Below the pieces are notes generated by a model. It was given only the letters and a program-made list of their open reading frames with translations. It was not told the DNA's origin and did no database searches. Shown here one piece after another: positions 9,256 through 44,307 of a DNA stretch of 64,000 nucleotides. Source of the stretch: Hallerella succinigenes (GTDB taxonomy: Bacteria; Fibrobacterota; Fibrobacteria; Fibrobacterales; Fibrobacteraceae); assembly GCF_002797675.1 (NCBI RefSeq), contig NZ_PGEX01000001.1:434001-498000 (forward strand). The letters run 5' to 3'. The stretch's first letter is position 1. The number at the start of each line of letters is the position of its first letter. A program made the position numbers and the translations under genes.

Positions 9256-9416
9256 GATTCAAATATAGCTAAATCCAGAACGCAGAACGGCCATTCTACA
9301 GTTTCACACCCTTACAAGTCCGCTACACAGCACACATACATGCCCCTAAAGCGCACAAAATCGTCCCATTCCACGTAATGCGACTTTTGGCTAAAGGACC
9401 AGTCCCTCGGAAACAA

Positions 9417-21898: not shown

Positions 21899-21948
21899 AT
21901 GAATTATTTATTTTACAGAAAGAAAATTACATCTTCATCTTCTAGATA

Positions 21949-23430: not shown

Positions 23431-23436
23431 TAGATA

Positions 23437-24918
23437 GTTGACCCTTAAAAAGTCACTTCGCGAGCGCAGGATAAGGAGGTTCGCCGTTTTTATTCACCCC
23501 TTCCCGGCAAAGGAAGCAACAGTATAGCCATTCCAACAGGACAAAAAAGCGCCTCATGGCCCTCTTGAAGTTGAACGCCGCTGCTGCAAGCTTTGCATTG
23601 AGCATGTCGCCAAAGATTCCCTTGTAGAAATTTCTACCCATACGGTGGTCGCTTTTCAGGTGGCCGTTGATAGGCTCGATGCCTGCCCTCTTGCAAAAAA
23701 GCTTGTGAGCCTTTTCCTTCTGGTAGTAAGTCGCGTTTTTCTTCGGGACGTCCGGTATCACGATCTTTGTCGTTCCGGATTCCTTTTGTCCGCGGTAGCC
23801 TCGGTCGCATGCGGCCTGGCTCGGCCTGAATCCAAGCATTTGTTCAACATGGTCAAGCGTATCGTCTATCGTATGTCCGTCATACTCGTCCCGGAACGAG
23901 ACCGCGCCGACAATGATGCCGCTGTAGCTCCGGGCGATTGACACCTTGTTGCCGAACTCGTATTTCTTGTGTTCCTTGCCCTTGCCGATGCATTTTACTT
24001 CGGGTTCGTGAAGCGAATAGACCTTGTCCTTGTCGCATTTCTTCTGTGCCAGAACTTTTTTGAAAAGCTCGATTTTTTCTTTGTACGTGTTCAACAAGTT
24101 CTTGCTGGCGAGATTTCGCTCTAATTCACGGACGAGCCGTCCCCCGATTGTCTTCAGCCTGCGATCTGCCTTGTGAGCCTTCTTGCCGTTCTTCGGGTGA
24201 TTGCGGAAACGCTGGTCACGATGGGCCTTCTTCAAGGTTCTCTTGTAGGACTGTCTTTGCGGAAGATCATGCTCTTCCACGATCCTCTGTACCTGTTCTA
24301 TTATCTTGTTCGCAAGTTTGGCGTCTGTAGGGAACGTGATGTTCTTTTCCTGCACGGTCGTGTCAAGAAAGACCGTGCCGCATCCTGTCGGTCCTTGTTT
24401 ATCGTGGTCATCGTTGACGAGGATACTTTCCTTGAGGATCATGTCCATGCCCGCTTCGCCAATCATGTGCCGGAAGTGAACAAGTTCGCTCGGGTCGCAG
24501 GGTTGCTCCGTCGAGAAGAACCGTTCTCCGCAAAAATACTGGTAATAGGCGTTTTCCTGAAACTGCTCCACGACGGACTCGTCCGATACGTTGCGGATGT
24601 GCTTCAGGATGATGAGCCCGGTCATGAGACGGATCGGCTTGTTCGGCGCACCCATTTTGTCGTCAAACCGTTTCGAAAACTCGGTCTCGAACTTGTTCCA
24701 GTCAATCTTGTTCGCGAGAACGTAGAGGGGGTGCTTGTGGTTCAACTGCTCCTCAAGGGAACAGAAAAGGCTTGTCTGTGCGTGGGATTTTGGCGGTCTG
24801 TACATAAAAAATTGCAAGGTTTTCAATCATATTTTAGAAAACCTTGCAATATTTTCACAGGGTAGAAATCAGTTTTTCCCAACAGTTATGCGGGCTGGGC
24901 GGGATTTTAAGGGACGAC
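23437..24918 (-). mobile_element. IS5-family insertion sequence, copy 4 (1482 bp), diverged
   Basis: The most different of the four copies. Its left end has GTCGTCCC as in copies 1 and 3 but the G of copy 2 in ACTGTTGGG. The coding region has at least four substitutions not seen in the other three, changing three amino acids. Copies 3 and 4 are therefore not a very recent simple duplication of each other. Confidence 0.88.
23453..24805 (-). CDS. IS5-family transposase, copy 4
   Basis: 450 aa. It differs from the other three copies at three residues: HPLYVLA instead of HSLYVLA near the N-terminus, KKAHRD instead of KKVHRD, and TIGGRL instead of TIAGRL. The candidate catalytic D, D and E are intact. 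The HPLY form matches what I recall as usual for this family, so copy 4 may be nearer the ancestral sequence. Confidence 0.9.
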   Translation of the reverse strand: MYRPPKSHAQTSLFCSLEEQLNHKHPLYVLANKIDWNKFETEFSKRFDDKMGAPNKPIRLMTGLIILKHIRNVSDESVVEQFQENAYYQYFCGERFFSTEQPCDPSELVHFRHMIGEAGMDMILKESILVNDDHDKQGPTGCGTVFLDTTVQEKNITFPTDAKLANKIIEQVQRIVEEHDLPQRQSYKRTLKKAHRDQRFRNHPKNGKKAHKADRRLKTIGGRLVRELERNLASKNLLNTYKEKIELFKKVLAQKKCDKDKVYSLHEPEVKCIGKGKEHKKYEFGNKVSIARSYSGIIVGAVSFRDEYDGHTIDDTLDHVEQMLGFRPSQAACDRGYRGQKESGTTKIVIPDVPKKNATYYQKEKAHKLFCKRAGIEPINGHLKSDHRMGRNFYKGIFGDMLNAKLAAAAFNFKRAMRRFFVLLEWLYCCFLCREGVNKNGEPPYPALAK

Positions 24919-25217
24919 TAGATAAATACGGTATTGCGTACAATATTGTGAAAATCTATCCCAATGGTGTTCGTGTAGGAAACATCCCTTTGCATTCGAC
25001 AAGAGCGAAACGTACGGGGATAAACCAATCTTGGTTCCCCGCGTCATGGAGTGAAAAGACTATTAAACGGGCAGGAGAACATGTAGCCCAATTACACAGG
25101 AACCGCAATGTTCCTGACGGTCAAATTATGTACGGAACTTTTAAAGGTCTTCGTGGAGGTGTAATCAAAACAAATGGGCAAATAGCAACAGCCTTTCCCG
25201 ATAGCAATCAACCATAG
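24919..25217 (+). pseudogene. EndoU nuclease toxin, C-terminal fragment
   Basis: About 99 codons remain after the IS end. The sequence fits the second half of the bacterial EndoU RNase domain found at the tips of CDI/Rhs-type toxins: YNIVKIYPNGVRVGNIPLHS, the family block SWFPASWSEKTIKRAGEHVA, and MYGTFKGLRGG with IATAFP. The N-terminal part, which holds the catalytic His pair of the family, is missing. The DNA left of the IS dimer does not supply it, so the toxin was already headless before, or was trimmed with, the insertion. An immunity-like gene starts nine bases after the stop. The fragment cannot be active alone. Confidence 0.65.
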
Positions 25218-28123: not shown

Positions 28124-28171
28124 ATTCCCAGATATGCTAAAGCAAATCCTAGTTAACAGGGAAGCTTACAA

Positions 28172-28565
28172 TAGGACAATTGTACCGCAGGGACATCATC
28201 AAACAGATAGACGACCCAGTGTCTTGACATACGCCCTATGCGGTCATAGGACTTCATTTTTATGGATACCGGATTACCTTCACCGTCGTAAGCAATGATA
28301 GCCCCGACATCATAATCGCGTATTCGTCCATCTGAGACAGAATGTTTCCAAGCAGCGAACTGTTCAGGTTTACCCCGTATAGGGTCAATGTATCGGATGT
28401 CGGCTTTCCGTAAACTGTGCGGACTATGGGAGTAAGAGCTGCGGAGGCAATCGCCGTATTTGGGGCAGCAAAGTCATGACCGCCATGTACTTCGCCGATT
28501 GCGACAACACGCCCTTCGCTGTCATATACATTCGCCATAAAGTAGTTGTTTCCCAAAGCCTTCTG
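28172..28565 (-). pseudogene. Rhs protein fragment, frameshifted
   Basis: About 395 bp closely match 34094-34489 inside the large Rhs gene: both encode KALGNNYFMANVYD and VVAIGEVHGGHDFAAPNTAI. A missing base (TATTCGTCC here, TATTCCGTCC there, near 28328) shifts the frame, so the copy ends in unrelated residues. Both borders are abrupt. It is a dead duplicate of a middle Rhs segment, not of the toxin-bearing end, probably left by recombination within the array. Confidence 0.8.
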
Positions 28566-28593
28566 ATACACGATATCATCCATGCAAAAAATT

Positions 28594-28959
28594 TTAGTAA
28601 TCTGCCATTTTATTGCCATCTATCTTGTAATAAGGCCATGTATGCCTAACTACATCAGACGGAATATAATTTTCATCTGCCACTGATTCTTCCTTCAAGA
28701 CATTCAGCAGAATTTCTGCATTCATTTTTTCTTTTAAAACTAAATTCACATATAATTCATGATAAATTGTAATACACGAATCACAGTATTTTTTTACTGA
28801 TATTTCTGCAAAAAGATAATCACATTTTATTCCATCTGTAGATTGGCAAAGAGCGAATTTCGCTCCACTATCATCTATATAAATAGGTCCCCGTTCAGAC
28901 GCAAACGAATAAATAGGTTTTACGGAAGAAGAACCTGAATCTTTGGGAAAATAATACAT
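28594..28959 (-). CDS. Unknown small protein, possible truncated immunity protein
   Basis: 121 aa from the first ATG (MYYFPKDSGSSSVKPIYSFA). The frame stays open about 25 codons further upstream without a usable start codon, so the N-terminus may be lost. It has four Cys, two of them close together in KYCDSCITIYHELYVN, which suggests an exported protein with disulfides, but no signal peptide is visible from this start. It lies behind the lipoprotein at 29028 in the Rhs operon and is A+T-rich like the other immunity genes. No family is recognised. Confidence 0.45.
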   Translation of the reverse strand: MYYFPKDSGSSSVKPIYSFASERGPIYIDDSGAKFALCQSTDGIKCDYLFAEISVKKYCDSCITIYHELYVNLVLKEKMNAEILLNVLKEESVADENYIPSDVVRHTWPYYKIDGNKMADY

Positions 28960-29027
28960 TTGTGCCGCATAATAAAAAAATAGAACATTTAACTCACCAA
29001 CCCCACTCGCTTTTATTTGTAAAGTTT

Positions 29028-29273
29028 CTAGATATTCTTTGATGTTTTATATTCTAGAGAACAAGGGTATAAAATTATTCGATTCTCTATTTTTTCTTCA
29101 CACACATTATAGCGTAAAATAGACTTTTCCCCTGGTTCATATGCATACCTGCTATGAAATGAGTCCTTAATTCTCTTTGAAAAAATTTCCACACTCCAAT
29201 GATGTCGGTTTCCATTCAAAACAGCACAACCACTTATCACTAAAAGGGTTACAACAAGAAATCTAAAAGTCAT
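29028..29273 (-). CDS. Small lipoprotein, putative immunity to the HExxH toxin
   Basis: 81 aa. MTFRFLVVTLLVISGCAVLN is a lipoprotein signal with lipobox ISGC, so the mature part (about 65 residues) sits on the periplasmic face of a membrane. Its start overlaps the stop of the orphan Rhs toxin by four bases. That position is where the cognate immunity gene is expected. Two later Cys (YNVCEEK; LYPCSLEY) could form a disulfide. No family is recognised. Confidence 0.6.
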   Translation of the reverse strand: MTFRFLVVTLLVISGCAVLNGNRHHWSVEIFSKRIKDSFHSRYAYEPGEKSILRYNVCEEKIENRIILYPCSLEYKTSKNI

Positions 29274-30583
29274 CTTCGCTGCGTCTCCAAAAGAATATTG
29301 TACAAGCGCCTTCGGTTTCCAAAAGTTTCTAAAGTTTTTATTGTTTGTTTGCTTGTTGATTTTCTTTCAATAAATGTTTTTAAATCAGCGATTTCTTTCG
29401 CACGTTCATTAGGCCAGAATTTATTAAACTTATGATCTAATAAACGATCTCTTACTAGGGCTTCTTCGGCATCAATACTATTATTAAACATCAGTCCCAT
29501 ATTACCAGATCCCATATAATTAAATTTTTGGTGAAGACCTTCATGCGCAATAGTTTCATAAAAATTCGCCGCTGATGTGGTGGCTGATTTTGCAATTTTT
29601 ATATTGCCCAAATTATCAGTCGCTCCCTCTGCATCTACAAATCCGGTTTTGCTGGTAGCACTTTCTACCCGAAAATATTCCTGTGTCATATCCACAGATA
29701 TCGTTCCTAAAGCTAGACCTTCTTCATTTCCTATATAATTGGCAACTCGATTTAAGAAATCAAAACGTTTGCCAAAACTATATGTTTCCTCGTATACACT
29801 CCATTGATAATTGACATCTGTTTGAAAACGAATTTCACTCAGCGTTCCTCCTAAAACTGCTCCAATGCCTACTTGTGCTAGAAAACCATTCCGCCCCCAC
29901 CAACTCCATTCGGAACGATTCCCCAAAGTGTTATTCAAAAAATAACTTGATGTATAACCAGCAGCAGAACCTGCTGCACCACCAACAGCACCACCAGCAA
30001 AAGCCGCAGCTGAACCAGATTCCATAAGAACTCCTGCAGCACCCGTAGCCAAGCCACTGACTGCGCTTCCGACCCCTCCACTAGCTGCTCCAGCAACGGC
30101 CCCCACAGCTGCACCTTGTGCTATCGCTTTTCCACACCCCACTTCATTTGCCCCGCTGCAATTCACCGCCGAAACTGTTCCGCCAACAGCGGCTCCTATA
30201 GCGGCCCCCACAATGATGGCCGCGGTTACGCTTTCCCCGTTTGGGTCAATGTAGTTTAGCGGGTCACCACCGTAAGTATAGGGGTTCGCAAACTGTCCGG
30301 CAGGGTCCGGCGTAAGCCATAGTCCAAAGAGCGGGTCATAGAATCGTGCGCCGAAGTAATACTTGTTCAAGTCGGAATCAAATTCCTTGGACTGCCAGCG
30401 TCTTGAATCTTCAGCATCGTCATGAGCCAAGTCAATTAGTGTCCCGTATGGGTAATAGGCGTATGCGCTCTGGACTCCAGATGTATTTGCATAGCCCCTG
30501 ATATTGCCCTGGACATCCGTCACAGGGAAATAGGCCAAGCCATTTTTGCGATAGCCACTACTAATCAAAAGCATTCTTGACAT
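29270..30583 (-). CDS. Orphan Rhs core with metallopeptidase-like C-terminal toxin
   Basis: 437 aa with no signal peptide. Residues about 10-170 are nearly identical to the large Rhs protein: YFGARFYDPLFGLWLTPDPA, then YGGDPLNYIDPNGES and the Gly/Ala-rich start of its tail. After that the sequence is unrelated to the main gene's tail. At about residue 343 lies YETIAHEGLHQKFNY, an HExxH zinc-protease motif, with downstream acidic residues that could give a third ligand. It overlaps the upstream lipoprotein by 19 bases. This is an orphan toxin cassette of the kind that can replace the main tail by recombination through the shared core. Expression as a separate protein is uncertain. Confidence 0.75.
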   Translation of the reverse strand: MSRMLLISSGYRKNGLAYFPVTDVQGNIRGYANTSGVQSAYAYYPYGTLIDLAHDDAEDSRRWQSKEFDSDLNKYYFGARFYDPLFGLWLTPDPAGQFANPYTYGGDPLNYIDPNGESVTAAIIVGAAIGAAVGGTVSAVNCSGANEVGCGKAIAQGAAVGAVAGAASGGVGSAVSGLATGAAGVLMESGSAAAFAGGAVGGAAGSAAGYTSSYFLNNTLGNRSEWSWWGRNGFLAQVGIGAVLGGTLSEIRFQTDVNYQWSVYEETYSFGKRFDFLNRVANYIGNEEGLALGTISVDMTQEYFRVESATSKTGFVDAEGATDNLGNIKIAKSATTSAANFYETIAHEGLHQKFNYMGSGNMGLMFNNSIDAEEALVRDRLLDHKFNKFWPNERAKEIADLKTFIERKSTSKQTIKTLETFGNRRRLYNILLETQRR

Positions 30584-31197
30584 TTCCTGTCAGAATTTTC
30601 ATTTTCTTTTACCAAAATGCACGTTTGAAAATAAATGTAATCTTGCAAATTCTCTGAATATATAGCATTGAAAGAACGCTCTTGTTTCGAACACGTATTT
30701 CCATAGCGTAAAAAATCGGTTTTCTTTTCAAATTCTTTTGTTCCGACATAAATCCTAGTCCAAACAATGGTTTTATCATATTCAAGAAATGAAGTCTGGT
30801 ATTTTACCAACCGATATACTTCTCCTGTATTAATTTCCACTAAAAAGGACTGAAAAAGGGCCTCATGTCTTAATTTATTCTTACATCCTCCAAGATCGCC
30901 CGCTCCAATTAACGCATTGCAAAAACCTGTAAGGCAATCAAAGCCTTGTTCATTATAATCCTGCATACAATTGCTCTCTTGTTCTTCTCCATCAAGATAA
31001 TACTCCACTTTGTATCTAGATTCATCGCCTTCTGCACTTTTCCCTAGATAAGATTGATAATACCTTTCTGCCATTTTATAAGAATATGGGTCAATCAAAT
31101 CAGTCGTTAATACAATATCTTGAGTATTTCTTGGCGTTGCACACGAAAGAATGAGAAAATTTATCATCGATACAATCCATTTTCTTTTGAATTTCAT
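30565..31197 (-). CDS. Lipoprotein, putative immunity protein 2
   Basis: 210 aa from MKFKRKWIVSMINFLILSCA (lipobox LILSC). An upstream in-frame ATG at 31218 would place extra residues before the signal. The C-terminal half is paralogous to the product of 31209-31790: VWTRIYVGTKEF aligns with WIHTMVYLGERNF, IYSENLQDYIYFQTC with TYSDCLKDSIFYETC, and the ends are CQECF and IEQCF. This protein has an extra Cys-rich insert (NCMQDYNEQGFDCLTGFCNA). Tandem lipoprotein paralogues behind an Rhs toxin fit immunity to an effector acting in the periplasm. Confidence 0.65.
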   Translation of the reverse strand: MKFKRKWIVSMINFLILSCATPRNTQDIVLTTDLIDPYSYKMAERYYQSYLGKSAEGDESRYKVEYYLDGEEQESNCMQDYNEQGFDCLTGFCNALIGAGDLGGCKNKLRHEALFQSFLVEINTGEVYRLVKYQTSFLEYDKTIVWTRIYVGTKEFEKKTDFLRYGNTCSKQERSFNAIYSENLQDYIYFQTCILVKENENSDRKCQECF

Positions 31198-31208
31198 ACA
31201 CACATTCC

Positions 31209-31790
31209 CTAAAAACACTGCTCGATTTTATAGCTAGAATCGTATTCTATACGTTTCATTACACATGTTTCATAAAAAATGGAATCTTTTAAGCAATCAG
31301 AATATGTGGAATTAAAATATTTCTCCGGCCAATGTTTTTCATCTTTTTTTCTTTTCCGAAAATTTCTTTCACCCAAGTACACCATTGTATGTATCCACGT
31401 AATCTTTTCCCCGGAATCGCTCGGTTTGTACTTCCCCAACAGATAATATTTTTTTTGTTTTCTTTCCGTGCAACGCTCGGTCATCGAAATGGATATTTCC
31501 GCATTTTTTATTTCATGATATGGTATAAGAGGATATTTGAAGAAAGTTCTACTGTAAAAAAAGCCAGGCAAGTCAATCTTTTCGCTTTTGGGTATTTCAG
31601 GATAATAAGTATTGTTAAAACCATAATGCATTTCATAACCAAAAGGGAGAAGATAACCATCTTCATCAAAATTATAAACATCATCGGTCACTAGCCACGT
31701 TCTCACCGCTAAAAGTTCCTTGTTTGAGCAACCGATGAATATTAAACAAATGAAAATACACATAATATTTTTTTTGGAGAAGTTCACCAT
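31209..31790 (-). CDS. Lipoprotein, putative immunity protein 1
   Basis: 193 aa. MVNFSKKNIMCIFICLIFIG followed by Cys is a lipoprotein signal. The gene starts seven bases before the stop codon of the large Rhs gene, so translation is coupled to the toxin. The mature part is polar and aromatic-rich (GFNNTYYPEIPKSEKIDLPG) and ends in a Cys-containing block shared with the next gene. I infer the cognate immunity protein of the toxin tail encoded just upstream. No family is recognised. Confidence 0.68.
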   Translation of the reverse strand: MVNFSKKNIMCIFICLIFIGCSNKELLAVRTWLVTDDVYNFDEDGYLLPFGYEMHYGFNNTYYPEIPKSEKIDLPGFFYSRTFFKYPLIPYHEIKNAEISISMTERCTERKQKKYYLLGKYKPSDSGEKITWIHTMVYLGERNFRKRKKDEKHWPEKYFNSTYSDCLKDSIFYETCVMKRIEYDSSYKIEQCF

Positions 31791-34700
31791 AATCCTCCCG
31801 GATAAAAATGATATCTATACCGCCACGGAATAAGGTTATTCGGAGCTCCACCCCGATAAAAAGGATTCAGCTCATGTACAGCACCTGTGCATAAACCAGC
31901 TTTTAGATATCCCATTCCTTTCATGTTATTAACAGTAACGTTGGAATGATAATTATCGGCATATTTTTTTGAAACAAAAGTTAATCTGGTTGAACTTTTA
32001 TCGTCATCCGCCGCATTTTGATATTCCATCACCCCGTTCCCGTTATTTTCTAAAACATTACCTTCAATATCACTACCTCGAACATGACTGAAAGGACCGC
32101 CTCCAGACAATATGGCAATAGCCCACCCCACCGGATCATTCGCCACAGAGGCGGAAACGGCACCTGGGCTAGTTCTCATTTCTTTAACCGCTTGTTTTTC
32201 TGTCATCCAAATCCCAGCCTTTTCTCCATAGAGGTTATTTAAGGCATCCGTTCCACCAACAGCATTAGCAGCATAGACCAAACCTATACTTGCAAGAGAA
32301 TTTGCCATTGACGATAGTCCCCCAAACATTAGTCCCTTCAATCCAGCTTCTCCTACATCATCGCCATTAATTTCCGCCAAGACCATTGAGGATATAGACG
32401 AAGACATTGCACTATTGACAACAGGGACATTTCCGAAATATGTTGCAGGGTTATACCAAGAACCACCAAAAGCTTGCCCCCAAGCCGATAGGCCATAACT
32501 TACACCTCCGCTTATCGCTCCACTAACGGACCCCTGCCAAAAAGCAGTCCACAGTCCCATACCATCAACGGAACCATTGCCTGTAACTGAATTTCCCAAG
32601 TAATTAATAGTCCCACTAGTTGCACCACCAGAAGCACCACCAGCAATCGCGCCACCAACACCGCCTATCGCCCCGCTGACTGCGCTTCCGACCCCTCCAC
32701 TTGCAGCTCCAGCAATTCCTCCGATTGCAGCACCTTGTGCTATTGCTTTTCCACAGCCAACTTCATTTGCCCCGCTGCAATTCACCGCCGAAACTGTTCC
32801 GCCAATAGCGGCTCCTATAGCGGCCCCCACAATGATGGCCGCAGTTACGCTTTCCCCGTTTGGGTCAATGTAGTTTAGCGGGTCACCACCATAAGTATAG
32901 GGGTTCGCAAACTGTCCGGCAGGGTCCGGCGTAAGCCATAGTCCAAAGAGCGGGTCATAGAATCGTGCGCCGAAGTAATACTTGTTCAAGTCGGAATCAA
33001 ATTCCTTGGCCTGCCAGCGTCTTGAATCTTCAGCATCGTCATGAGCCAAGTCAATTAGTGTCCCGTATGGGTAATAGGCGTATGCGCTCTGGACTCCTGA
33101 TGTATTTGCATAGCCCCTTATATTGCCCTGAACATCCGTCACAGGGAAATACGCTGCGCCATCTTTGCGGTAGCCGCCTGCAATCAAATCCTCCCGTACA
33201 AGAGTATAATCCCCACTTCCATCCTTGCGGTAAACGCCCACCCCGCCCAGGGTCGCCTCACCGTAACCGGAACTTCCGTCACCATAGTTAAAATACATAC
33301 GCTGGCCGTTTTCGTCATAGGCCATACGGATTCGAGCCAATTCTAAAGACTCGAAATCATCCAAATTATTCTGCGAAATTCCAGACGGGACTTCAGGATA
33401 CAACCGAACATTCTCCGGCAACGCCCTGGCATCCAGTTCGTAGGCGGCACGAGCATAACGGTCTAGCCACACATTTCCGGATGCGTCATAGGAATAGTAC
33501 TCAAACGGGGTGTAGCTTCTACCCGAAATCGTCATACCATGAGGTCGATAGTAGCCTTGATGGCTCTGAGAACCATAGTAATACCCTACAGCTTGGGAAC
33601 CCTCGCGCTTGGCAGTCAGGCGTCCAAGTTCGTCATAACGATAGCTTGCGTTCCTAGTTCCGGACATTTCCGTCAGACGGCCCAGATAGTCATAGGTATA
33701 GCCAGCATTTTCTACAACTCGGCCTGCAGTTCCCGCATCAGCCCACACTCTTGCCACGGTTGACTGTCGCACAGACAAGGGATTTTCATACGATATGTTT
33801 TCAGAATAAAGCTCCGTAGAGCCGTTCCTATAGTCCAGTACAACGGGTCTTCCGTATACATCGCGCCGAACGGTTTTTGCAAACACCTCTGCTCCCGCAT
33901 CGTAATAATGTTTGGATACAACATTCCCATTTGCACTGTACGTATAGCTAGCCAACATGGAATTGCCTTCGCGTGTTTCAACGAGGCGTCCCTTGTTGTC
34001 ATAAGTTCTAGTCCTTGTTGACTTTTGCGTCCAACCGCTTCCATCCCATTCCGAATAGGTCGAAGAAGCCAGCTCGTCGGACAAGTTATAGACATAGGAC
34101 AATTGTACCGCGGGAACATCGTCAAACAGATAGACGACCCACTGTCTTGACATGCGCCCAATGCGGTCATAGGACTTCATTTTTATAGATACAGGATTAC
34201 CTTCACCGTCGTAGGCAATGATAGCCCCGACATCATAATCGCGTATTCCGTCCATCTGAGACAGAATGTTTCCAAGCAGCGAACTGTTCAGGTTTACCCC
34301 GTATAGGGTCAATGTATCGGATGTCGGCTTTCCGTAAACTGTGCGGACTATGGGAGTAAGAGCTGCGGAGGCAATCGCCGTATTTGGGGCTGCAAAGTCA
34401 TGACCGCCATGTACTTCGCCGATTGCGACAACACGCCCTTCGCCGTCATATACATTCGCCATAAAGTAGTTGTTTCCCAAAGCCTTCTGGCGAGCGTTTC
34501 TCGTAAACCTTAAATTTCCCAAGGAATCATAGGCATATTCCACCAGGCCACGGTCATTGGATTTTTTCGAGAGCAGGCGACCCATGGCATCATAGCCCAT
34601 CGTATCCGCAAACGCAGGGTAATCCCTAAGATAAGATCGAATCAACCTATCATAGCCATCATACTCGTTCATGACAACGAGTTCATTCTCGCCATCGTAT

Positions 34701-36760
34701 GTCCATGTCGATACAGTCCTGTTTTTCTCATCCGTTACACTTTGCGTATAACGCCCTTCAGCATCGCGAGATATCGTCAAATGCTTTCCGCCAGGGTTCT
34801 TGATTCTTTTCCTGAAATTATCCGATATATTGTCTTCGTTCAAATAATTCAAATAGAGAAAGTCCGTCGCAACAGATGCGGGCAAACCGTAGGCTTCCTG
34901 GACTTGCTGCTGATATTCAAAAGAACGCCTCGCTATCCCTGCATTCCTTCCGAAGGAACCGGAAGTATTTCCATATCTCGGTTCGAATTCCGTGAAGGCA
35001 TTACTCTCCGCATTCGGTTTGTCTGTAGAATCGGTTCCGTCGTAATAATTATTCGCCGCGGTCACACAGGCTTCGCAAGCCATATCCATATACCCGAATG
35101 CAGTCGTATCACGCACAAACGACATCGGCTCATATTTTGTTTTTCCGAGAGCGTCACTATATACGGCTGACACAATATACTTTCCGTCAGCAAGAGAATC
35201 CTGCTTCTGCACAGTCGAACCGAAGGCGTCCTTGAAAAATGCCGATGTAAACTTTCTCGCATTTGACTGGTTGACGGGATCAAGATAGGAATCGGTCTTT
35301 ACCATTTCCGGTACGACATCGAGCGTCCTCGCCTCACAGGGAGCAAATTCAACGACCACATTCACATTTTCATGCATGGCCGTGATATCAAAATCAATCT
35401 TCGAATACGGCCTGTTTCCATAGACCTTAAAAAGCTTTACATATTCATTTGCATCTCTCATTGCATTAAACGACGGATTTATGGGAGGCATTTTCGAAAT
35501 AATTTCTCCATTGAGAACAACAACTTTTCCATTCACCGTAATCCGTTCTATCGTCGAACCGGCCTTGCCTATTATGGAAGCGGAAGCCTTTTCACCTTCG
35601 TATAGACTAAACGGAGAAGTACCCGACGGGGAGTTCATCGATACACGACCACTTCCCGTAATCGAAAAAGTCAACTGATATGGTTTAGGTGGCAGAAACT
35701 GGATTGACGGGAGTTGCTTTAGATTGTATACAATCCGGCCTATTCTAAATGTCATATTTTGGTTTTGTGGGTAAGCCAGCTGAAATTTGAAACCTGGAGC
35801 CGGCCTAGTTACATAAGATGACGTATAGAAAGGGCCGCCCCACTGATAAGTGTAATCTTCGGGACTAAATACCCCCATCGTCTGATTCTTCTTCATGGAC
35901 GGATAATACGCATCTGCAGTTCCTTGAAACTCATTGAAATACCAAATGCAAAGACTATCGTCAACATCGACCGGATTAAGCATTTTGACTTCGATGTTAC
36001 GTATTCCACCAACTACGGGGTACTCTCTAGAATAATCATAAGCAAGGAGTCCCCCAGCTTGCGAAAATGTTCCCATATTCACAAGAAGGCCAGTCCCAAT
36101 GCCGTTTGGTTCAGTAATAGAAACCCCGGCCCCGTTAAATGATTTCGCTATCCATCCAGGTCTCAAACCATTCGGCCCATAGACATCCATTCTGGTCACT
36201 TGTTTCTTCTCCGGACGTGTTTTTACAGTTCCGTTATACAAGACCGGACGCATCCAATTAAGCAATTCCGGTTTGGCGTGAGCAACATCGTTTTGCCATA
36301 GCTGTACCTGAATTTCACCGTCTATAAAGAAAGACGACTGGACAGAATAGGATTTTCCCCTATACAGAAACGGTCCCATTTCTACAACGGTAAGATAATT
36401 CGAATTCGCATCGACAATAGACCTCCATCTAAAAAAGTTTCCCATGTTGACATCGGCAGAAATAGGCTGTAGATAGGGTTCGATGTCCTTATCAAGACCG
36501 TTAGTCGAATTTCCAAACGAAATGCGGCCATCGGCATAAATGGTAAGATTCGAATATGTTCGCGACATATAGGTAAACTGATGTGCTTCAGAAAGACTGA
36601 GAACTGTCCCGTTCACCGAAAAAGGAACAACTTGCGCATCTGACATGTCTATCCAGCTAGGGAGCGCCCTATGAATTTTGCCATCGCTATATCGCTGGGC
36701 AATGACATCCGCAAAGGAAAATCCGACAATCAGGAATAGAAAAATTAGTGTCTTTTTCAT
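31784..36760 (-). CDS. Large Rhs/YD-repeat protein with variable toxin C-terminus
   Basis: 1658 aa. A Sec signal (MKKTLIFLFLIVGFSFADVI) is followed by a beta-rich N-terminal region of about 600 residues with no clear family, and then YD/Rhs repeats (YDGYDRLIRSYL; YDSLGNLRFTRN; YDELGRLTAKREG). The Rhs core signature stands near residue 1262 (YYFGARFYDPLFGLWLTPDP), with PNGES just below 1300. Next come Gly/Ala-rich hydrophobic segments, then a polar tail. Around 1558 the tail reads GPFSHVRGSDIEGNVLENN and near 1623 LKAGLCTGAVHEL. This His-then-Cys order resembles permuted NlpC/P60 (papain-like) hydrolases. AGGAGG precedes the ATG. The gene lies eight bases after the 2431-aa gene and overlaps a lipoprotein gene. 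Confidence 0.85.
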   Translation of the reverse strand: MKKTLIFLFLIVGFSFADVIAQRYSDGKIHRALPSWIDMSDAQVVPFSVNGTVLSLSEAHQFTYMSRTYSNLTIYADGRISFGNSTNGLDKDIEPYLQPISADVNMGNFFRWRSIVDANSNYLTVVEMGPFLYRGKSYSVQSSFFIDGEIQVQLWQNDVAHAKPELLNWMRPVLYNGTVKTRPEKKQVTRMDVYGPNGLRPGWIAKSFNGAGVSITEPNGIGTGLLVNMGTFSQAGGLLAYDYSREYPVVGGIRNIEVKMLNPVDVDDSLCIWYFNEFQGTADAYYPSMKKNQTMGVFSPEDYTYQWGGPFYTSSYVTRPAPGFKFQLAYPQNQNMTFRIGRIVYNLKQLPSIQFLPPKPYQLTFSITGSGRVSMNSPSGTSPFSLYEGEKASASIIGKAGSTIERITVNGKVVVLNGEIISKMPPINPSFNAMRDANEYVKLFKVYGNRPYSKIDFDITAMHENVNVVVEFAPCEARTLDVVPEMVKTDSYLDPVNQSNARKFTSAFFKDAFGSTVQKQDSLADGKYIVSAVYSDALGKTKYEPMSFVRDTTAFGYMDMACEACVTAANNYYDGTDSTDKPNAESNAFTEFEPRYGNTSGSFGRNAGIARRSFEYQQQVQEAYGLPASVATDFLYLNYLNEDNISDNFRKRIKNPGGKHLTISRDAEGRYTQSVTDEKNRTVSTWTYDGENELVVMNEYDGYDRLIRSYLRDYPAFADTMGYDAMGRLLSKKSNDRGLVEYAYDSLGNLRFTRNARQKALGNNYFMANVYDGEGRVVAIGEVHGGHDFAAPNTAIASAALTPIVRTVYGKPTSDTLTLYGVNLNSSLLGNILSQMDGIRDYDVGAIIAYDGEGNPVSIKMKSYDRIGRMSRQWVVYLFDDVPAVQLSYVYNLSDELASSTYSEWDGSGWTQKSTRTRTYDNKGRLVETREGNSMLASYTYSANGNVVSKHYYDAGAEVFAKTVRRDVYGRPVVLDYRNGSTELYSENISYENPLSVRQSTVARVWADAGTAGRVVENAGYTYDYLGRLTEMSGTRNASYRYDELGRLTAKREGSQAVGYYYGSQSHQGYYRPHGMTISGRSYTPFEYYSYDASGNVWLDRYARAAYELDARALPENVRLYPEVPSGISQNNLDDFESLELARIRMAYDENGQRMYFNYGDGSSGYGEATLGGVGVYRKDGSGDYTLVREDLIAGGYRKDGAAYFPVTDVQGNIRGYANTSGVQSAYAYYPYGTLIDLAHDDAEDSRRWQAKEFDSDLNKYYFGARFYDPLFGLWLTPDPAGQFANPYTYGGDPLNYIDPNGESVTAAIIVGAAIGAAIGGTVSAVNCSGANEVGCGKAIAQGAAIGGIAGAASGGVGSAVSGAIGGVGGAIAGGASGGATSGTINYLGNSVTGNGSVDGMGLWTAFWQGSVSGAISGGVSYGLSAWGQAFGGSWYNPATYFGNVPVVNSAMSSSISSMVLAEINGDDVGEAGLKGLMFGGLSSMANSLASIGLVYAANAVGGTDALNNLYGEKAGIWMTEKQAVKEMRTSPGAVSASVANDPVGWAIAILSGGGPFSHVRGSDIEGNVLENNGNGVMEYQNAADDDKSSTRLTFVSKKYADNYHSNVTVNNMKGMGYLKAGLCTGAVHELNPFYRGGAPNNLIPWRYRYHFYPGGLW

Positions 36761-36768
36761 TTTTCCTC

Positions 36769-39700
36769 CTATTCAATTACGGCATCCGCCTGTACATAAA
36801 TGTTGTTGGCCCAAATAAGCCCTTCCCACCTGGATCGGGGCGCAAGGCTCACGGATGCGAACGGAGCGACAAGAATGGACGCAAAATCAGAATAGACTCC
36901 GAAATACATCAAGTCAGTTGTATTCGTATAAAGGAATACATTTTCTGCTCCACCTGGAGAATTATAGAGCCCCGCACGGTCAGCAATGCTGATACCGTTT
37001 TGTACCCACAGACGAACAGGGCCATCAAAGTACACCCTGACATCAGGTTCTACGACAAAGGAGTCGAAATAATATTCCCCCTCCTCAAAATGTATTTCCG
37101 AATTTGCATAGGCATGGAAATCCTTATATGCACCAGAAGATATCGTTGCCGAATCATTCACGCCGACGATAAAATCCGTTATTCCTGTAACGAAATAATT
37201 TACAGGTATGTCCGCAATATGGACATCCCTATGTTCAATTTGTCCGTGCGTTGCACCATCCTGCATATACAGATTTCCACCTAAAGTAATATCCTCGACA
37301 TTTGAATTGGACCGTAACAAGACATCCCCTTCAACAGTCATCTGTGCAAGAACATTTGCTCCTGCGCAAACCTCGACCGTTTCACCGACAACTTCATCGG
37401 CAGAAATCGAAGCCCGATCATAAAGGGCCATATATCCTGTAGCATAGACCTTGTGCCCTAACAAATTCCTATACGGTAAAGGAATATTCTCATGTTCGTC
37501 AACTCCGCTACTATCGTCATCGCTTTCATTCTTGTTTTCAGCAATGTTGTCATCTTCAACGAAAATAACTTGCTTATTTCCATATTCATCCTCCAGGAAC
37601 AACGTATCGATTGAAGCCTTGGAGAAATCCAAATCAACACAGGTGCTGCGGAAATAGGTCGTTCCCTTGAACCACAGACGAACGCCGAACGGGAACTGAA
37701 TACAGAATTTACGATACGAACTATCCCCCCTACTGACATATAGTGCCGTATCCAAAGCTATGCCGACAGGAATCAAATTGCTGTTGGTACTGATACTATA
37801 TTGCAATGTTTTATCCGATGAATCCGCAGTCGGGTGCTCCCTAACCAGGTCTATCGTATAAGTCAAAGATACGCCATTAGCCCCGATGACATTTATTTCT
37901 ATGCGGTTCTCTCCAGGTTCCAAATGAATTTCACTTGTCAAATCCTGGAAGTTATATCCGGGAGAAAATATTGAACCGACCCACGATATCAGTGCACCAA
38001 AGAAATTGACACCCTCATAGGAAACCTGATTCCCGTTATGAAGCACCTGCACAGAAGCTACATCCAGCGGTTCCATCAAGGCGGGTGATATTTCAATGAC
38101 AGAGTCATTCGACAATACCTTGGCCGAATAATTTAAAATGTATTGACGGAATTCGGACGAAATTGTTGTCACGGCACCCGTAACCTGAATTCCAGAAAGA
38201 GTTATATCCACGTCATCCGCCGATACATACTTCATTGGAACAATATGCTTTCTGCGACTTTTCGTTTCTTTATCCGATGCCCGTACAACAACAGCGGGTG
38301 TTCCATTTGAGCCAAAAGCCAAGCTGGCCGAATTCACCATTTTATTTGACTTAATGAAAGCAGGGATACCAACAGAAAGCCATCGTGAATCTCGATAACT
38401 TACAAGAGTGAGTCCATCTTCGTTTTGACTATTCGCAAACAAGACATAAGGGATTCCATTCCGAACAGCAAAATCAAACGGAGCATCACTTTCTAAATAA
38501 GCAATAATCCGGCGTTCCTGTTCAACGGGTAATCCCGCAGAATTTACAATAGAAGCATCCTCGTAGGGAGTAAACTGGAGTCTATGCTCGGGAATACCAT
38601 CTTCATCTTCCGTGTCGACAAATTCGCCCCTGAGAACCGTAATAGCAGTCTTACCAGTATTGTCCACAGAGACATTGTATGCGACAGCAAGGTAGATATA
38701 GTCAGCATCGCCAACAATCTTAAACTGCTTCACCATGGTAAGTGGTATTGAATCATCCATAAAGACAAAATCTCCTAGATAATTCGGGAGCATGTCACCC
38801 GAAGCAGAATCCTTTGTAAGAGTCGGCCCCGCCCAAATACTTCCTGAGCCAGATATTCCTGATTCCGAAGAATCAAAAAGCCTCTTTATAATCAAGAATT
38901 TGGGAGAAGAAACGCTATCTCCATGTTCAGCAATCACATCATCCTTATATAGTTCAAAATAGGGATTTCGTGCAACATACGCCACATAGAGTTTTCCGCC
39001 AGGACCTGTTGTCAAATCAACGCCAAACACATCGCCATTCTCTATAATACCCGGTACAACAGATGGAGGCGCATCAAAATCTTGCCCAAACACCGTATAG
39101 CCACCTATAGGCATCCATACATTGTTTATAAAGCAACTGGAAGCAAGTACCGAAGGCGTTGTGCTATCATGGGCAGCTGTCTTTACATAGGCCGCACAAA
39201 CATTGCCAGTTGAATTCGCCGACATAGCAAAATCAAGCCCGTATACGGAGGCATCAAAAATGTAACCATTGTTGCTCCATGTTTCTGAATTGCCAGAGAA
39301 CAGTTCAGCATTTTCGTTGCTAGTAGAATCAACCATCAGGATTCGCGGCATTGAAAGCAAATAGCTGTTTCCACCAGACGTTGTTCCCGACAAAGCCTTA
39401 GACTTTTGCAAAGTTACCAGATTTTCAATCCATGCATTTCCACTAAAATCAGCCGTATAGACTCCATCTGGTGCAGAATAGACTATTTTCGATGAATCTC
39501 CCTTGCTAATAAACAGCGGCATTTCAGCCTTTCTCAAAATATTTCCATAGCCAACCCACCCGGAAGAGGTTTTCTGAATATGCACAGTATAAATCCCGAC
39601 ACTGTCCGCCCCGACATCTATTTCCAATGTATATGAGGTATTGTCATCAAACGTAGCATACAACCCATCGGTAGCAGAGCAACAGTCGTAATGCCATCCA

Positions 39701-42700
39701 GCCGAAGCAGACTCTCCGTCCGCATAAAGACGATAACGGACTGCATCTTCCGAATTCTTTGGTTCCCAAGAAATAACTACATCCTCCTTGTTTCCGGCCA
39801 ATACATATTGCAAGTTTCGATTAGTCGAAGACTGAAGAATCGGTTTGGAATCAAAAGATAAAGACGCCAAGTCATCTGAACCAAGAGAAGGATCGCTACA
39901 TCTTGCATCGATGAAATCATTTTCGCTTACAAGCCGTAGACTACCGGAAACATCTTCACCAAAAGTCTTTTTGATCCGTCCGTTTTCATCCAGCGTAATA
40001 TGCTTACCAACACCTCGATCATCAACTTCGGCAACAGGCATCCCGAAGTGTACATCATAGTATTTGACCATGGCTGCAGCACCAGCGGGGATCATCCGGA
40101 TATCCTGCACACGAGTATTTCCCGTACTAGACAAGGAAACATTCTGTAAACCCGAATTCACTTCGCCTTCCCACTCGACATAATGCCAATTACCGGCCGC
40201 ATTTCCATCTAAAGTCCAGTTATATTTCTGTATTCCATTAAGTGACAACGTAACTGTTGCAGATGTGTTGTCCGCATTTTGGACCCATGCGGAAAAACGA
40301 TATTTAGCTTGCCTTGCCTGCTTGACGACACCTGAAAAGCCATATCTCAAATCCATCACGACTTTTGAAAAGCGACCATTAGACGCACCTTCGCCATCGG
40401 TCGCTCTTCCCTGTAAAGGCAACAAGTGACATTCACTAGTCACTTCCATGCCATTTTCGTCACAACGATCACCAGGAACAACAAGAATTTCATCAAATCC
40501 GGCATTTTGCACCACGGCACGTTCAAAAGCAATTGAGTCATCATCAACAACCCTTGCAGTCTTGTTTCCGAGTGCATCAGTTTTTTCTACTGCAAAACCG
40601 TTCAAAAATTTTAATACAGCAGAATTCTTTTTCCATATACCACTTGGGTTCTCATTAAGCGCCCAAGGAATTCCTTGGAAAGAATTGCCATTTACAAGGC
40701 TATCAGGATTATAAATCCATTCCTCAACAAGGTGCGGTATTCCTATTGAGTCGTTTGCAGCGGCATAACGAGCCGCCGTAGCCTGAACTACTTTTCCCGA
40801 AGTGCAATTGGGCTTACATGAATAAGAAAGCAATGGGTTGCGGAGATGATTTCCATTACGTTCAAAAGCATATTCTTCCGCCGAATATCTGAGAACCTGC
40901 TCATTAGAGATATCATTCGAACCGTTTTCAAAAAACAATTTTCTTGAGGGCAGTCCATTAAGCGCAATATTATACTCTATCGAATCCTTACTCTTGACGC
41001 CCTTGATATACGTTTCAACAGAACTGACTGCATCGACATGCAACAGATTCGGCCAATTTGAATTATGGTAACGAGTATACTTGGAAATTGAACTTTTTTC
41101 AATAACTTCCCCCACATAGGTTCTTTCAGCGCAAATTTTTCCCAGTCCAAGCCCGACATCACTGTAATCAATTGGGCACAATTCTCGTTCAATCATCCCT
41201 GAATTATCTGGTAATTCAACGCGAACGGTCGTTATTAAAGGTGTATTATTCACATAATCAAAGGCAACATCCGGAGCATTGTCAAAATTATAAACATACT
41301 TGTAAGAATACTCTTTGTCAATTATTGGATCCTGAACAGTCTTCTTTTCTACAAGTAACACGCCCTTATTTTTCACAAAGGAATCATTTTTCTTATAATA
41401 AACCCTTGTCGTTCCTTCTTCCGGCAGTCCAGTCGACCCCTCAACAGCAAAGAAATCACCTATTGTATAAGACTCGTCAAAGAGTTCGACCGTAGTCGGT
41501 CCTTGTCCGCTCGGGGTTCGGATATCCTCAAAGTGACTCCAATTTATATCAAGTTGTTCTTCGTTCCATTTTACGCCGTCCCACAGAAAAGCCTTGTTTG
41601 ATCGTTTCTCTATATACCAATTCGAGCCAACAACCAAATGTTTTTCACTTTTGGAATCATCAGTATTTACTTCACCATATCTTATCCACCCACCATCATT
41701 TTGCCGCTCAAACAATTCAATATTTGCACCGGAGTGGGTTTCACTCCACACTCTCACATATTTACACTTCCACTTTACACCCCAACGCTTAAATTTCGGC
41801 CAACAAAAATAGGGGATTTTAATAATGTTGTCTACTTTGGGTCTTCTTGTCACAAAGAAATGGCTACTCCCAACAGCATCCCATTCCGCCTCTTTCAAAA
41901 GGTCAAAATCATCATGGTGGACCATATTCCTATTTTCAAAAGGAATCCGCCAGGATTCACCATCCCAATCAAATAAAGTCAAGTCATCGTTGTCATTGTG
42001 TCGCATAGCGACATAATTATAACCTACAGCCTGCGCCCTCGGAACGCCCTGAACCCCATGAACATCATAGTTAAGCAATTTTGTCCAACCACTACCATTC
42101 CAATGATACGCTTCTGCTCGTTGCCCCCAAAGGCCAGTGGACTCCACGGCACCAAACAAATAGCCGTTTCCCCAATAGTAACGATTATCGTCGTCCAAAT
42201 CATCATTATCATAGGTTTTTTGGACAGAAATTCCGGATGCATCGTACTTAAAAGAAAAAATTCTTACTCGGTAGTTGTTTCCCAAATCTTCACCTATATA
42301 AGATACAGCAATATGATTTTCCGACGGATAAATCTGAAGGAACTGATTATCCATACTCCCTTCATCAGCAGAAAGAGTATCTATTACAAAAGTATTTCCC
42401 CATAGAGTCCAAGGAACTGTGAGCGTCAGGGTAGATTCGTCTGAAGACAGATTTCCCTTTACTATATAATTAGGACCTGTAAGCACCAATTCCTTATCAC
42501 CATCATCATGAACATATGGCTTCACTTGCCACGAAGCACCATCCCATACAACAGGATACATATCGTAACTATCGCCATCACCTGTCACATAGGCGAACCA
42601 GTTGTTTTTCTCCGTAATAAAATACCCTTTGTCATGATACGGCAGTGAACTTAATTCCTTTCGTATATTCCAGGCGCCGTTTCGCCAATAATAAACAACA

Positions 42701-44064
42701 ACTTTTTTTTCGTTCTTGTCAACACCTAACAAATAGGGAGTTCCGTCCTCCAAGTAACCTAGCGACACGTTGACGACAGGCAATTTCTCCGAGTGAATAG
42801 TCAACGGTTGTTTATCTATGGCCTGATAGACATAATCAAATGACACTTTTCCGCAGTTCGCCCCCTGAATTTCCTTCATCATGCCTAACGCGTAGGAATC
42901 ATTCAAATACGCTTTATACACATTATCGTAGTATTCATACGATTCTCGTTTCGTTTCCTTTCCGGCGCCATTCGCCCACACTATTCGTGTCAATAAACGC
43001 TTGGTGTATTTTTTATTTTCGTCGGCGTCTAGACTTGGAGAAACTTTCAAAGCTTCATAACAGAAACCTACCGTTTGCAAAATTTCGCCATCCATTCCAT
43101 AAAGTTCTACCTTAGACAAGAATTTTCGTTTCAGGGGGTCCACAAACGCATCAATTTCATCATCAGCAGAAAGTTCTTCTTTTCCGATAGCATCAACCAC
43201 TTCACCTTCAAAATCACCTTCATTTTTATCCGAAAGAACAAACTTTACATAAGAACCCATCGAGGAACGAACCTCTTTTAAGTATGTTTCTTTTGTATAT
43301 CTGTTTTGAGAAGTCCAGGAACCATGCTTTATTTTTTCCTGAAACTGGTAATAAGAATATGTTAAAGAATTATTTTTCCAATCATAAATCTTAGCTAGAC
43401 TCCAAGAAACGGGATAAGGGACATCGTTTCCATCGATAGACTCACCCGTATGCCCAAATGCAGGAAAACCTAGCTCATATGCCGTCGCCCCTTGCGCACT
43501 ACAAGCAGTATCTAAAGTATTAGACATGCAATAAGACATATCACCATACTGGTATTTATTGCCCGAATCATCCGTCAAAATCCATCCCACGACAATTTCA
43601 AAAGTTTTGCCACTTAAAATTTTTGTTTCAACATGTCTTTCAACCAACCAATATGGCAAACCTTCAATCCACCATCGATTTCCCTCATAAATCAACTTAT
43701 AACGAATACCCTCTGCAGTTACCAAGTAATAAAAATCATCTAAAAGACTCATCGAATGATTGTTTTCGCTAACGATTTTTGCAAAACCCATAGACCAACC
43801 TAAACCGACCCAGCTAGTCGGACTCAAGTCATTTCGATTTTTTACACTCTGAGAAACATTACCCGAATAATTCAAAGCAAACGAGGTGGATACGCCCCCT
43901 GCAGACAGCGTTGCAAGAGGAACACTAAAGCTAACCGTTCCAGATAAAGGGTTTATCCCACCATCAGGGGACATATATTTATTGAACGATTCGCCCGTTT
44001 CCACAGATTGCGAAAGAACCACGGAACAAGCGATGAATAAAATTTGTAAGATTTTCGAAAGCAT
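36769..44064 (-). CDS. Giant SpvB/Rhs-like surface protein with C-terminal beta-helix
   Basis: 2431 aa from MLSKILQILFIACSVVLSQS, which gives a signal peptide; an upstream in-frame start at 44211 would put 49 unlikely residues before it. The N-terminus is the Rhs/SpvB-type opening (MSPDGGINPLSGTVSFSVPL; SPTSWVGLGWSMGFAKIVSE). A long middle part has propeller-like repeats about measured values and a ligand-binding-like module (RFSAWVQNADNTSATVTLSL). Near residue 2000 is a cadherin-like beta sandwich (LEPGENRIEINVIGANGVSL). The last 250 residues form short beta-helix-like repeats (VCAGANVLAQMTVEGDVLLR). There is no Rhs core signature and no toxin tail. It probably works with the next gene, as shell or anchor of a two-protein complex. 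Confidence 0.7.
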   Translation of the reverse strand: MLSKILQILFIACSVVLSQSVETGESFNKYMSPDGGINPLSGTVSFSVPLATLSAGGVSTSFALNYSGNVSQSVKNRNDLSPTSWVGLGWSMGFAKIVSENNHSMSLLDDFYYLVTAEGIRYKLIYEGNRWWIEGLPYWLVERHVETKILSGKTFEIVVGWILTDDSGNKYQYGDMSYCMSNTLDTACSAQGATAYELGFPAFGHTGESIDGNDVPYPVSWSLAKIYDWKNNSLTYSYYQFQEKIKHGSWTSQNRYTKETYLKEVRSSMGSYVKFVLSDKNEGDFEGEVVDAIGKEELSADDEIDAFVDPLKRKFLSKVELYGMDGEILQTVGFCYEALKVSPSLDADENKKYTKRLLTRIVWANGAGKETKRESYEYYDNVYKAYLNDSYALGMMKEIQGANCGKVSFDYVYQAIDKQPLTIHSEKLPVVNVSLGYLEDGTPYLLGVDKNEKKVVVYYWRNGAWNIRKELSSLPYHDKGYFITEKNNWFAYVTGDGDSYDMYPVVWDGASWQVKPYVHDDGDKELVLTGPNYIVKGNLSSDESTLTLTVPWTLWGNTFVIDTLSADEGSMDNQFLQIYPSENHIAVSYIGEDLGNNYRVRIFSFKYDASGISVQKTYDNDDLDDDNRYYWGNGYLFGAVESTGLWGQRAEAYHWNGSGWTKLLNYDVHGVQGVPRAQAVGYNYVAMRHNDNDDLTLFDWDGESWRIPFENRNMVHHDDFDLLKEAEWDAVGSSHFFVTRRPKVDNIIKIPYFCWPKFKRWGVKWKCKYVRVWSETHSGANIELFERQNDGGWIRYGEVNTDDSKSEKHLVVGSNWYIEKRSNKAFLWDGVKWNEEQLDINWSHFEDIRTPSGQGPTTVELFDESYTIGDFFAVEGSTGLPEEGTTRVYYKKNDSFVKNKGVLLVEKKTVQDPIIDKEYSYKYVYNFDNAPDVAFDYVNNTPLITTVRVELPDNSGMIERELCPIDYSDVGLGLGKICAERTYVGEVIEKSSISKYTRYHNSNWPNLLHVDAVSSVETYIKGVKSKDSIEYNIALNGLPSRKLFFENGSNDISNEQVLRYSAEEYAFERNGNHLRNPLLSYSCKPNCTSGKVVQATAARYAAANDSIGIPHLVEEWIYNPDSLVNGNSFQGIPWALNENPSGIWKKNSAVLKFLNGFAVEKTDALGNKTARVVDDDSIAFERAVVQNAGFDEILVVPGDRCDENGMEVTSECHLLPLQGRATDGEGASNGRFSKVVMDLRYGFSGVVKQARQAKYRFSAWVQNADNTSATVTLSLNGIQKYNWTLDGNAAGNWHYVEWEGEVNSGLQNVSLSSTGNTRVQDIRMIPAGAAAMVKYYDVHFGMPVAEVDDRGVGKHITLDENGRIKKTFGEDVSGSLRLVSENDFIDARCSDPSLGSDDLASLSFDSKPILQSSTNRNLQYVLAGNKEDVVISWEPKNSEDAVRYRLYADGESASAGWHYDCCSATDGLYATFDDNTSYTLEIDVGADSVGIYTVHIQKTSSGWVGYGNILRKAEMPLFISKGDSSKIVYSAPDGVYTADFSGNAWIENLVTLQKSKALSGTTSGGNSYLLSMPRILMVDSTSNENAELFSGNSETWSNNGYIFDASVYGLDFAMSANSTGNVCAAYVKTAAHDSTTPSVLASSCFINNVWMPIGGYTVFGQDFDAPPSVVPGIIENGDVFGVDLTTGPGGKLYVAYVARNPYFELYKDDVIAEHGDSVSSPKFLIIKRLFDSSESGISGSGSIWAGPTLTKDSASGDMLPNYLGDFVFMDDSIPLTMVKQFKIVGDADYIYLAVAYNVSVDNTGKTAITVLRGEFVDTEDEDGIPEHRLQFTPYEDASIVNSAGLPVEQERRIIAYLESDAPFDFAVRNGIPYVLFANSQNEDGLTLVSYRDSRWLSVGIPAFIKSNKMVNSASLAFGSNGTPAVVVRASDKETKSRRKHIVPMKYVSADDVDITLSGIQVTGAVTTISSEFRQYILNYSAKVLSNDSVIEISPALMEPLDVASVQVLHNGNQVSYEGVNFFGALISWVGSIFSPGYNFQDLTSEIHLEPGENRIEINVIGANGVSLTYTIDLVREHPTADSSDKTLQYSISTNSNLIPVGIALDTALYVSRGDSSYRKFCIQFPFGVRLWFKGTTYFRSTCVDLDFSKASIDTLFLEDEYGNKQVIFVEDDNIAENKNESDDDSSGVDEHENIPLPYRNLLGHKVYATGYMALYDRASISADEVVGETVEVCAGANVLAQMTVEGDVLLRSNSNVEDITLGGNLYMQDGATHGQIEHRDVHIADIPVNYFVTGITDFIVGVNDSATISSGAYKDFHAYANSEIHFEEGEYYFDSFVVEPDVRVYFDGPVRLWVQNGISIADRAGLYNSPGGAENVFLYTNTTDLMYFGVYSDFASILVAPFASVSLAPRSRWEGLIWANNIYVQADAVIE

Positions 44065-44099
44065 AAGGTAAATATAAAAACGCGAACATTTTTTGCTAT

Positions 44100-44229
44100 A
44101 AGCCAGGCGTTGCGGGCTGGCGTCTGAAGCCCGCAGTGGGGGTGCGCGGAAGACCCAAAGGGGCTGAAGCCAGGGGGATTCCTCCCCCACCATACGCAAA
44201 AAGGGCCGCATCGCTGCGGTCCCTTTTTA
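44100..44229 (+). repeat. Intergenic repeat copy B with terminator hairpin
   Basis: Shorter partner of 21698-21898, in the same orientation: AAGCCAGGCGTTGCGGG, GCGGAAGACCC, GGCTGAAGCCAGGGGG, then CCCCCACCATACGCAAAAAG and a terminator hairpin (AAAGGGCCGCA TCGC TGCGGTCCCTTTTT). The hairpin is nearly symmetrical and could stop transcription on both strands. It stands upstream of the giant gene's start and would insulate the Rhs operon. The rest of the 341-bp gap (44065-44405) holds a hairpin-like GGGGCTACGCCCC and the putative antitoxin operator. Confidence 0.65.
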
Positions 44230-44307
44230 ATGCTGGTCTGGATCCTATCGGGGCTACGCCCCTCCAGGATAACATAGGGAACGAGACGCCATCTTGCTCC
44301 TTTTGTA

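Follow-up and report, generated by a model that had tools for sequence, protein, structure and literature searches.

How does a genome come to carry, behind one intact Rhs gene, a second copy of the core of that gene joined to a different C-terminal tail? The question is raised by a locus in the window, as we call the whole 64,000-nt stretch of DNA analyzed here (bases 434001–498000 of a closed 3.13 Mb genome). A sequence-only reading had proposed a long Rhs operon of a member of the Fibrobacterota, with a giant companion protein and lipoproteins as immunity proteins, in which one toxin is in the course of being replaced by another. The assignment to this phylum is borne out indirectly by the 51 Fib_succ_major matches in the host genome.

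Organization of the Locus

The host genome has a single Rhs locus. All of the features named from the sequence were found in place, on the minus strand (Table 1). Read in this direction, the order is giant, Rhs, lipoprotein 1, lipoprotein 2, orphan, broken lipoprotein gene and a 395-nt remnant. The giant and the Rhs gene form a two-gene operon with a gap of 8 nt between them. The giant is 2431 aa long when read from the Met at 44064, and its frame is open as far as 44211.

Table 1. Features of the Rhs locus and their positions in the window.
Feature	Position	Strand	Remarks
Giant companion, 2431 aa	36769..44064	-	Sec-type signal; N-terminal domain, WDG-x-W-like repeats, C-terminal DUF7305/bactofilin-like domain
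Full-length Rhs, 1658 aa	31784..36760	-	Sec-type signal, strong ribosome site; RHS_repeat and Rhs_assc_core matches
Rhs-associated core of resident gene	32855..33151	-	Ends in DPNGE
Gly/Ala-rich linker and current tail T1	31784..32854	-	Relative on another Rhs core in G075
Lipoprotein, candidate T1 immunity 1	31209..31790	-	Position behind T1
Lipoprotein, candidate T1 immunity 2	30565..31218	-	Homologs behind T1-like tail (G075) and T1-like stubs (G092)
Duplicated core segment, left copy (resident Rhs)	32673..33188	-	Paired with orphan copy
Duplicated core segment, right copy (orphan)	30054..30569	-	Paired with resident copy
Orphan: core fragment and putatively displaced tail T2, 437 aa	29270..30583	-	AHEGLH (HExxH)
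T2 immunity lipoprotein gene (candidate), split by frameshift	28594..29273	-	Intact 226-aa form in G064 and G059
Remnant, frameshifted	28171..28565	-	Copies Rhs residues ~757–890

The Rhs Protein and Its Duplicated Core

The Rhs protein contains RHS/YD repeats (PF05593, 2.2e-9; TIGR01643, 1.4e-5), and the RHS-associated core model TIGR03696 is matched by both the main Rhs (3.1e-14) and the orphan (1.6e-15). The core, which also matches solved PDB structures of Rhs and TccC, ends just before the tail in DPNGE, a DPxG motif.

The resident and the orphan core can be aligned over 517 nt with 94.0% identity, rising to 99% across 300 nt. In successive blocks of 60 columns the identities are 52/60, then 59, 59, 60, 59, 59, 57, 49 and 36, and finally 16/36. 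The two copies, similar far beyond chance, are near-identical inside and diverge at both ends. We looked for similarity between the tails T1 and T2 and could detect none. A near-identical core shared by the Rhs gene and the orphan, followed by complete divergence, is what had been noticed from the sequence, and the alignment confirms it.

The third remnant had likewise been described as a duplicate of another Rhs segment. It is indeed a copy of Rhs nt 34094–34489 with 97% identity and a frameshift, and is probably the start of an older, lost cassette. An IS21-like element was considered as the cutter of this remnant, but its repeated match stops near 27879 and about 290 nt of other sequence lie between, which gives this idea no support.

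The Same Core Carries Different Tails in Other Genomes

The genomes G064 and G059, both from another genus, contain an orthologous Rhs that has T2 as its tail, with an intact 226-aa lipoprotein behind it. Positions 28573–30569 of the window are colinear with the 3′ end of the Rhs gene at the loci L042 and L043 (93.2% identity over 1998 nt). A third tail is found behind the same core in G033 and in contig L012, and the core in G060 carries a tail related to this third one (66% over 313 aa). G059:C48 holds one more orphan, whose tail is different again. A comparison across genomes for different tails behind the same core had been proposed as a check, and the tails in G064/G059, G033/L012 and G060 are of this kind. 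Since T2 is the resident tail in G064/G059, the check is obtained in its strongest form, which supports tail replacement through the conserved core.

Behind the G033 tail (L044, 751–1634) stand two successive small lipoprotein genes, as behind T1 in the window, and double immunity genes may be common.

Tails T1 and T2 and Their Lipoproteins

The T1 tail domain was found in only 3 of the 168 genomes of the phylum, too few to improve the alignment. G075 has a relative of T1 (41.6% identity over 202 aa) at the end of a different Rhs, and behind it lies a lipoprotein homologous to that encoded at 30565–31218. G092 has two short stubs of the end of T1, each standing ahead of a relative of the same lipoprotein and inside a run of exported genes. 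The T1 tail and the lipoprotein therefore travel together, which is the best available evidence for their pairing. The run in G092 (L084, contig C47, 1772–9962) comprises about nine exported or lipoprotein genes, with T1-like C-terminal stubs only (near 4235–4375 and 9151–9315), and looks like an immunity-only island in which the toxins are reduced to stubs.

T1 has a conserved His (SHVR) followed by a conserved Cys (GxCxGA), and our guess is a permuted papain-like enzyme. T2 contains AHEGLH, an HExxH motif that is also seen in several other tails. Neither Pfam at E 10 nor PADLOC assigned T1 or T2 to a toxin family, and AlphaFold runs on the two tails with shallow alignments gave no usable models (pLDDT 35 and 36).

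Lipoprotein genes had been described after each toxin-bearing unit. This holds for the main tail, which is followed by two paralogous lipoproteins (31% identity over 83 aa, E 1e-9); behind the orphan, what had been read as a lipoprotein covers just the N-terminal 81 aa of a 226-aa gene that is split. A single frameshift in the window causes the split and, being read from the assembly, might be an error in it; the gene is intact in G064 and G059. The orphan ORF itself has no signal peptide and no good ribosome site, and its start overlaps the end of the immunity 2 gene.

Exported Proteins Behind the Tails Across the Family

After removal of duplicates, 86 core-bearing ORFs were available, many of which are short fragments of core and tail in arrays. 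In 64 of 74 cases the gene after the tail encodes an N-terminal hydrophobic segment for export, compared with 18 of 64 background ORFs (Fisher 2e-12). Lipoproteins, called by a simple, broad lipobox test with background and shuffle controls, follow 23 of the 35 tails of at least 280 aa, compared with 5 of the 64 background ORFs (2e-9) and 2.3% of shuffled sequences. Both contrasts are approximate, as the background ORFs came from mechanical calling and related loci do not count as independent. They support the proposed lipoprotein version of Rhs immunity at the level of candidates. With lipoproteins as the usual partner behind long tails, toxins that act on the envelope and a route other than a T6SS are suggested. 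If the weapon does attack the cell envelope of neighbors, this would explain why the immunity proteins are exported lipoproteins.

In another class of arrays (L073–L075, L078, L085 and L089), the Rhs tails are short (about 150 aa), and the downstream genes are exported but mostly non-lipoprotein.

Transfer Between Genera

The PriA protein of the host is 58–60% identical (aa) to those of G064 and G059, and 71% identical to that of a genome of its own genus that has neither the giant nor a full Rhs. The 11.4-kb unit of giant and Rhs (32679–44078), however, shows 95.5–95.8% DNA identity to G064/G059. With DNA identities this high against a PriA identity of only 58–60%, the unit moves between genera and, judging from these comparisons, has done so recently. 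The genes flanking PriA are kept together in G059 and G064, and the Rhs locus is absent from that place and sited elsewhere.

An intergenic repeat flanks the locus on both sides in the same orientation (44088–44260 and 21822–21894) and also precedes the giant in G064 and G059; it may have had a part in mobilizing the island. A conserved gene for a trypsin-like protein of 293 aa lies upstream of the giant in G064 (L042, 2396–3277), G059 (L043, 4025–4906) and G033 (L044, 14280–15161). It is missing from the window, where about 10 bases are left between the flanking matches. The window also contains, as two tandem pairs (2520–5381 and 21942–24924), four near-identical copies of an element with a transposase of 457 aa. 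This element occurs in more than one genus, since the G064 contig begins with 95 bases that match its end at 100%.

The Giant Companion and a Likely Route of Delivery

In every long-body locus with enough upstream sequence the giant lies at most about 16 nt upstream of the Rhs gene. Strong matches to the giant in the family are likewise paired with a downstream Rhs match, except at contig ends (compared by eye). The giant, which had been singled out as a companion from the window alone, is therefore a conserved partner of the long Rhs genes, and its N-terminal domain is present in 16 of the 41 genera of the phylum. Five WDG-x-W-like repeats suggest a propeller, and the C-terminal DUF7305/bactofilin-like domain is found in five of six relatives (best 6e-13). 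The SpvB and TcdB models of Pfam had no match in the giant or in five aligned relatives, where remote homology is possible, and a PDB profile search with the N-terminus returned nothing useful. Even so, the giant looks similar to the SpvB/propeller partner of TcB. In some loci related to the arrays with short tails (L054, L040 and L041), the giant-like partner is smaller, about 1457 aa.

A dedicated secretion system linked to the 2431-aa protein, which the sequence-only reading had suggested looking for, was not found. The T6SS sheath protein VipB/TssC was detected in none of seven genomes (the E. coli control was positive). The T9SS protein SprA scored above cut-off in all seven and is encoded about 0.8 Mb from the Rhs locus. 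Neither Rhs nor the giant, which ends in the DUF7305-like domain, matched a T9SS sorting domain of the Por_Secre_tail type, and scans of both with Pfam and NCBIfam gave no FHA-type domain. The likeliest route is Sec over the inner membrane, and then the T9SS or the giant itself. It is possible, though we lean against it, that the Fibrobacterota have a separate class of Rhs weapon, in which a Sec-exported giant propeller/β-helix companion and an Rhs shell would attack the envelope of neighbors with no T6SS and possibly with the T9SS, the pair moving between genera and the tail being swapped in place.

How the Tail May Have Been Displaced

The best explanation, to which we give a probability of roughly 85%, is that this is a polymorphic Rhs toxin locus in which homologous recombination within the conserved core pushed the resident C-terminal toxin tail off the Rhs gene. 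The incoming DNA would have consisted of core, T1, lipoprotein 1 and lipoprotein 2. It would have arrived as a circle or within a donor array, and its core would have recombined with that of an Rhs gene then ending in T2. The product would be an Rhs ending in T1 with its lipoproteins, followed by the second core, to which the former T2 tail is attached, and the T2 lipoprotein gene. A single crossover with a circle would account for the junction, as would a double crossover with a donor array. The Rhs protein would be exported by Sec and probably assembled with, or surfaced by, the giant; its tail would be delivered to neighboring cells, and the lipoproteins would guard the cell's own envelope. 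A point against this explanation is the synonymous divergence of T2 (0.239), which is somewhat higher than the value for the Rhs body (0.155; p about 0.03); tail and body may have different histories.

The replacement had been described as still in progress, which does not agree with the state of the T2 immunity gene. Since this gene is already frameshifted, a reversion by recombination between the two cores would restore the toxin without its immunity, and the swap therefore looks finished. The same observation bears on the orphan as a standing silent cassette, from which recombination between the cores, with deletion of T1 and its lipoproteins, would bring T2 back into expression, as happened in evolved Salmonella LT2. 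The shared 517 nt at 94% are close to the LT2 substrate of 522 bp at 95% (PMC3967940), and the T2 tail is intact, with a dN/dS of 0.09 relative to the resident copy and no decay. Such a low ratio, however, reflects mostly the time before displacement, and reversion would expose the cell, which leaves this explanation unlikely, if still worth weighing.

The polarity of the change could also be the reverse, as a loss of T1 in G064/G059 by deletion between two cores would look similar. An ancestor with T1 followed by T2 would then have lost T1 in these genomes, and fusions of an orphan to the main gene by deletion are documented in Yersinia and Salmonella (PMC3150448, PMC3967940). We consider this improbable, as neither G064 nor G059 retains any trace of T1. 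In addition, the middle part of the L042 core is about 95% identical to the cores in the window, which are 99% identical to each other; a simple deletion would not predict this difference, though later divergence could hide it.

A different function is conceivable for the whole locus, with Rhs and the giant as surface or adhesion proteins rather than an antibacterial weapon, and with another role in the envelope for the tails and lipoproteins. Fibrobacter lives attached to fibre, the tails match no toxin family, and the giant has a DUF7305/bactofilin-like domain, all of which would suit adhesion. Tail polymorphism with paired downstream genes, arrays of fragments and the joint movement of tail and lipoprotein nevertheless form the pattern of toxin and immunity, and the HExxH motif recurs in several tails; adhesion is accordingly quite improbable. 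Finally, an in-place tandem duplication of one Rhs end with rapid divergence of the tail would leave two adjoining core copies, as here, but is scarcely credible when T1 and T2 are dissimilar and each has separate relatives elsewhere.

Comparison With Known Systems

Displacement of the tail through the core thus appears as the preferred reading far from the enteric bacteria in which the process has been described, and with the displaced tail still resident in relatives. The locus points to a two-protein Rhs operon whose giant partner is found in 16 genera of the phylum and whose immunity candidates are exported. Competition among fibre degraders becomes testable with defined pairs of tail and lipoprotein.

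For the enteric rhs genes, displacement of the tip via the core, circular intermediates and arrays of dissociated tips have been proposed (Jackson, 2009; PMC2935791). What this model describes is also found in the window, namely an intact gene and, downstream of it, a displaced tail with a piece of core, the same tail being resident elsewhere. The enterobacterial loci likewise have a conserved core with unrelated tails, and downstream fragments of core and tail with varying core length (PMC2935791, PMC3967940). They also resemble the window in a shared core of about 520 nt (522 bp at 95% between the main and the orphan rhs of Salmonella LT2; Koskiniemi, 2014; PMC3967940), an orphan tail resident in other strains and the decay of displaced parts. 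Unlike them, the locus in the window has a Sec-type signal, an upstream giant and exported or lipoprotein immunity candidates, lacks a T6SS sheath, belongs to another phylum and shows transfer between genera.

The orphan cdiA-CT/cdiI arrays of CDI systems are displaced modules of toxin and immunity as well, interchangeable between strains and resident in others (Poole, 2011; PMC3150448). Their carrier protein and export route are different from those of the window, and orphan CDI immunity genes are reported to be functional (PMC3150448), unlike the T2 immunity gene of the window, which is broken.

Polymorphic toxins of the TcdB/TcaC type (SpvB, β-propeller and RHS) have been listed for the Fibrobacteres (Zhang, 2012; PMC3482391). 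Like TcB-TcC, the operon has two large partners, the second with an Rhs core that matches TccC. The giant, however, has no Pfam match to SpvB/TcdB, and Rhs and giant are separate proteins, each with a Sec-type signal. In the same survey, Imm65 was the only lipoprotein immunity family known (Zhang, 2012; PMC3482391).

Among the Bacteroidota, the RHS gene of Ornithobacterium hominis and Bergeyella is accompanied by arrayed orphan tips and immunity genes, and the tips are common to different RHS cores; a giant partner and exported immunity are not mentioned in the accessible part of that report (PMC13183296). The TANFOR toxins of Bacteroidetes are likewise large exported carriers with C-terminal toxins in T9SS bacteria, but the characterized toxin is a DNase with another kind of immunity protein (PMC7073777). 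Pfam and NCBIfam, which may or may not include a TANFOR model, gave no TANFOR match on Rhs or the giant.

The mechanism of displacement is not new, as it is known from work on enteric rhs (2009), CDI (2011) and LT2 (2014). What differs here is the setting, the giant partner and the exported immunity candidates.
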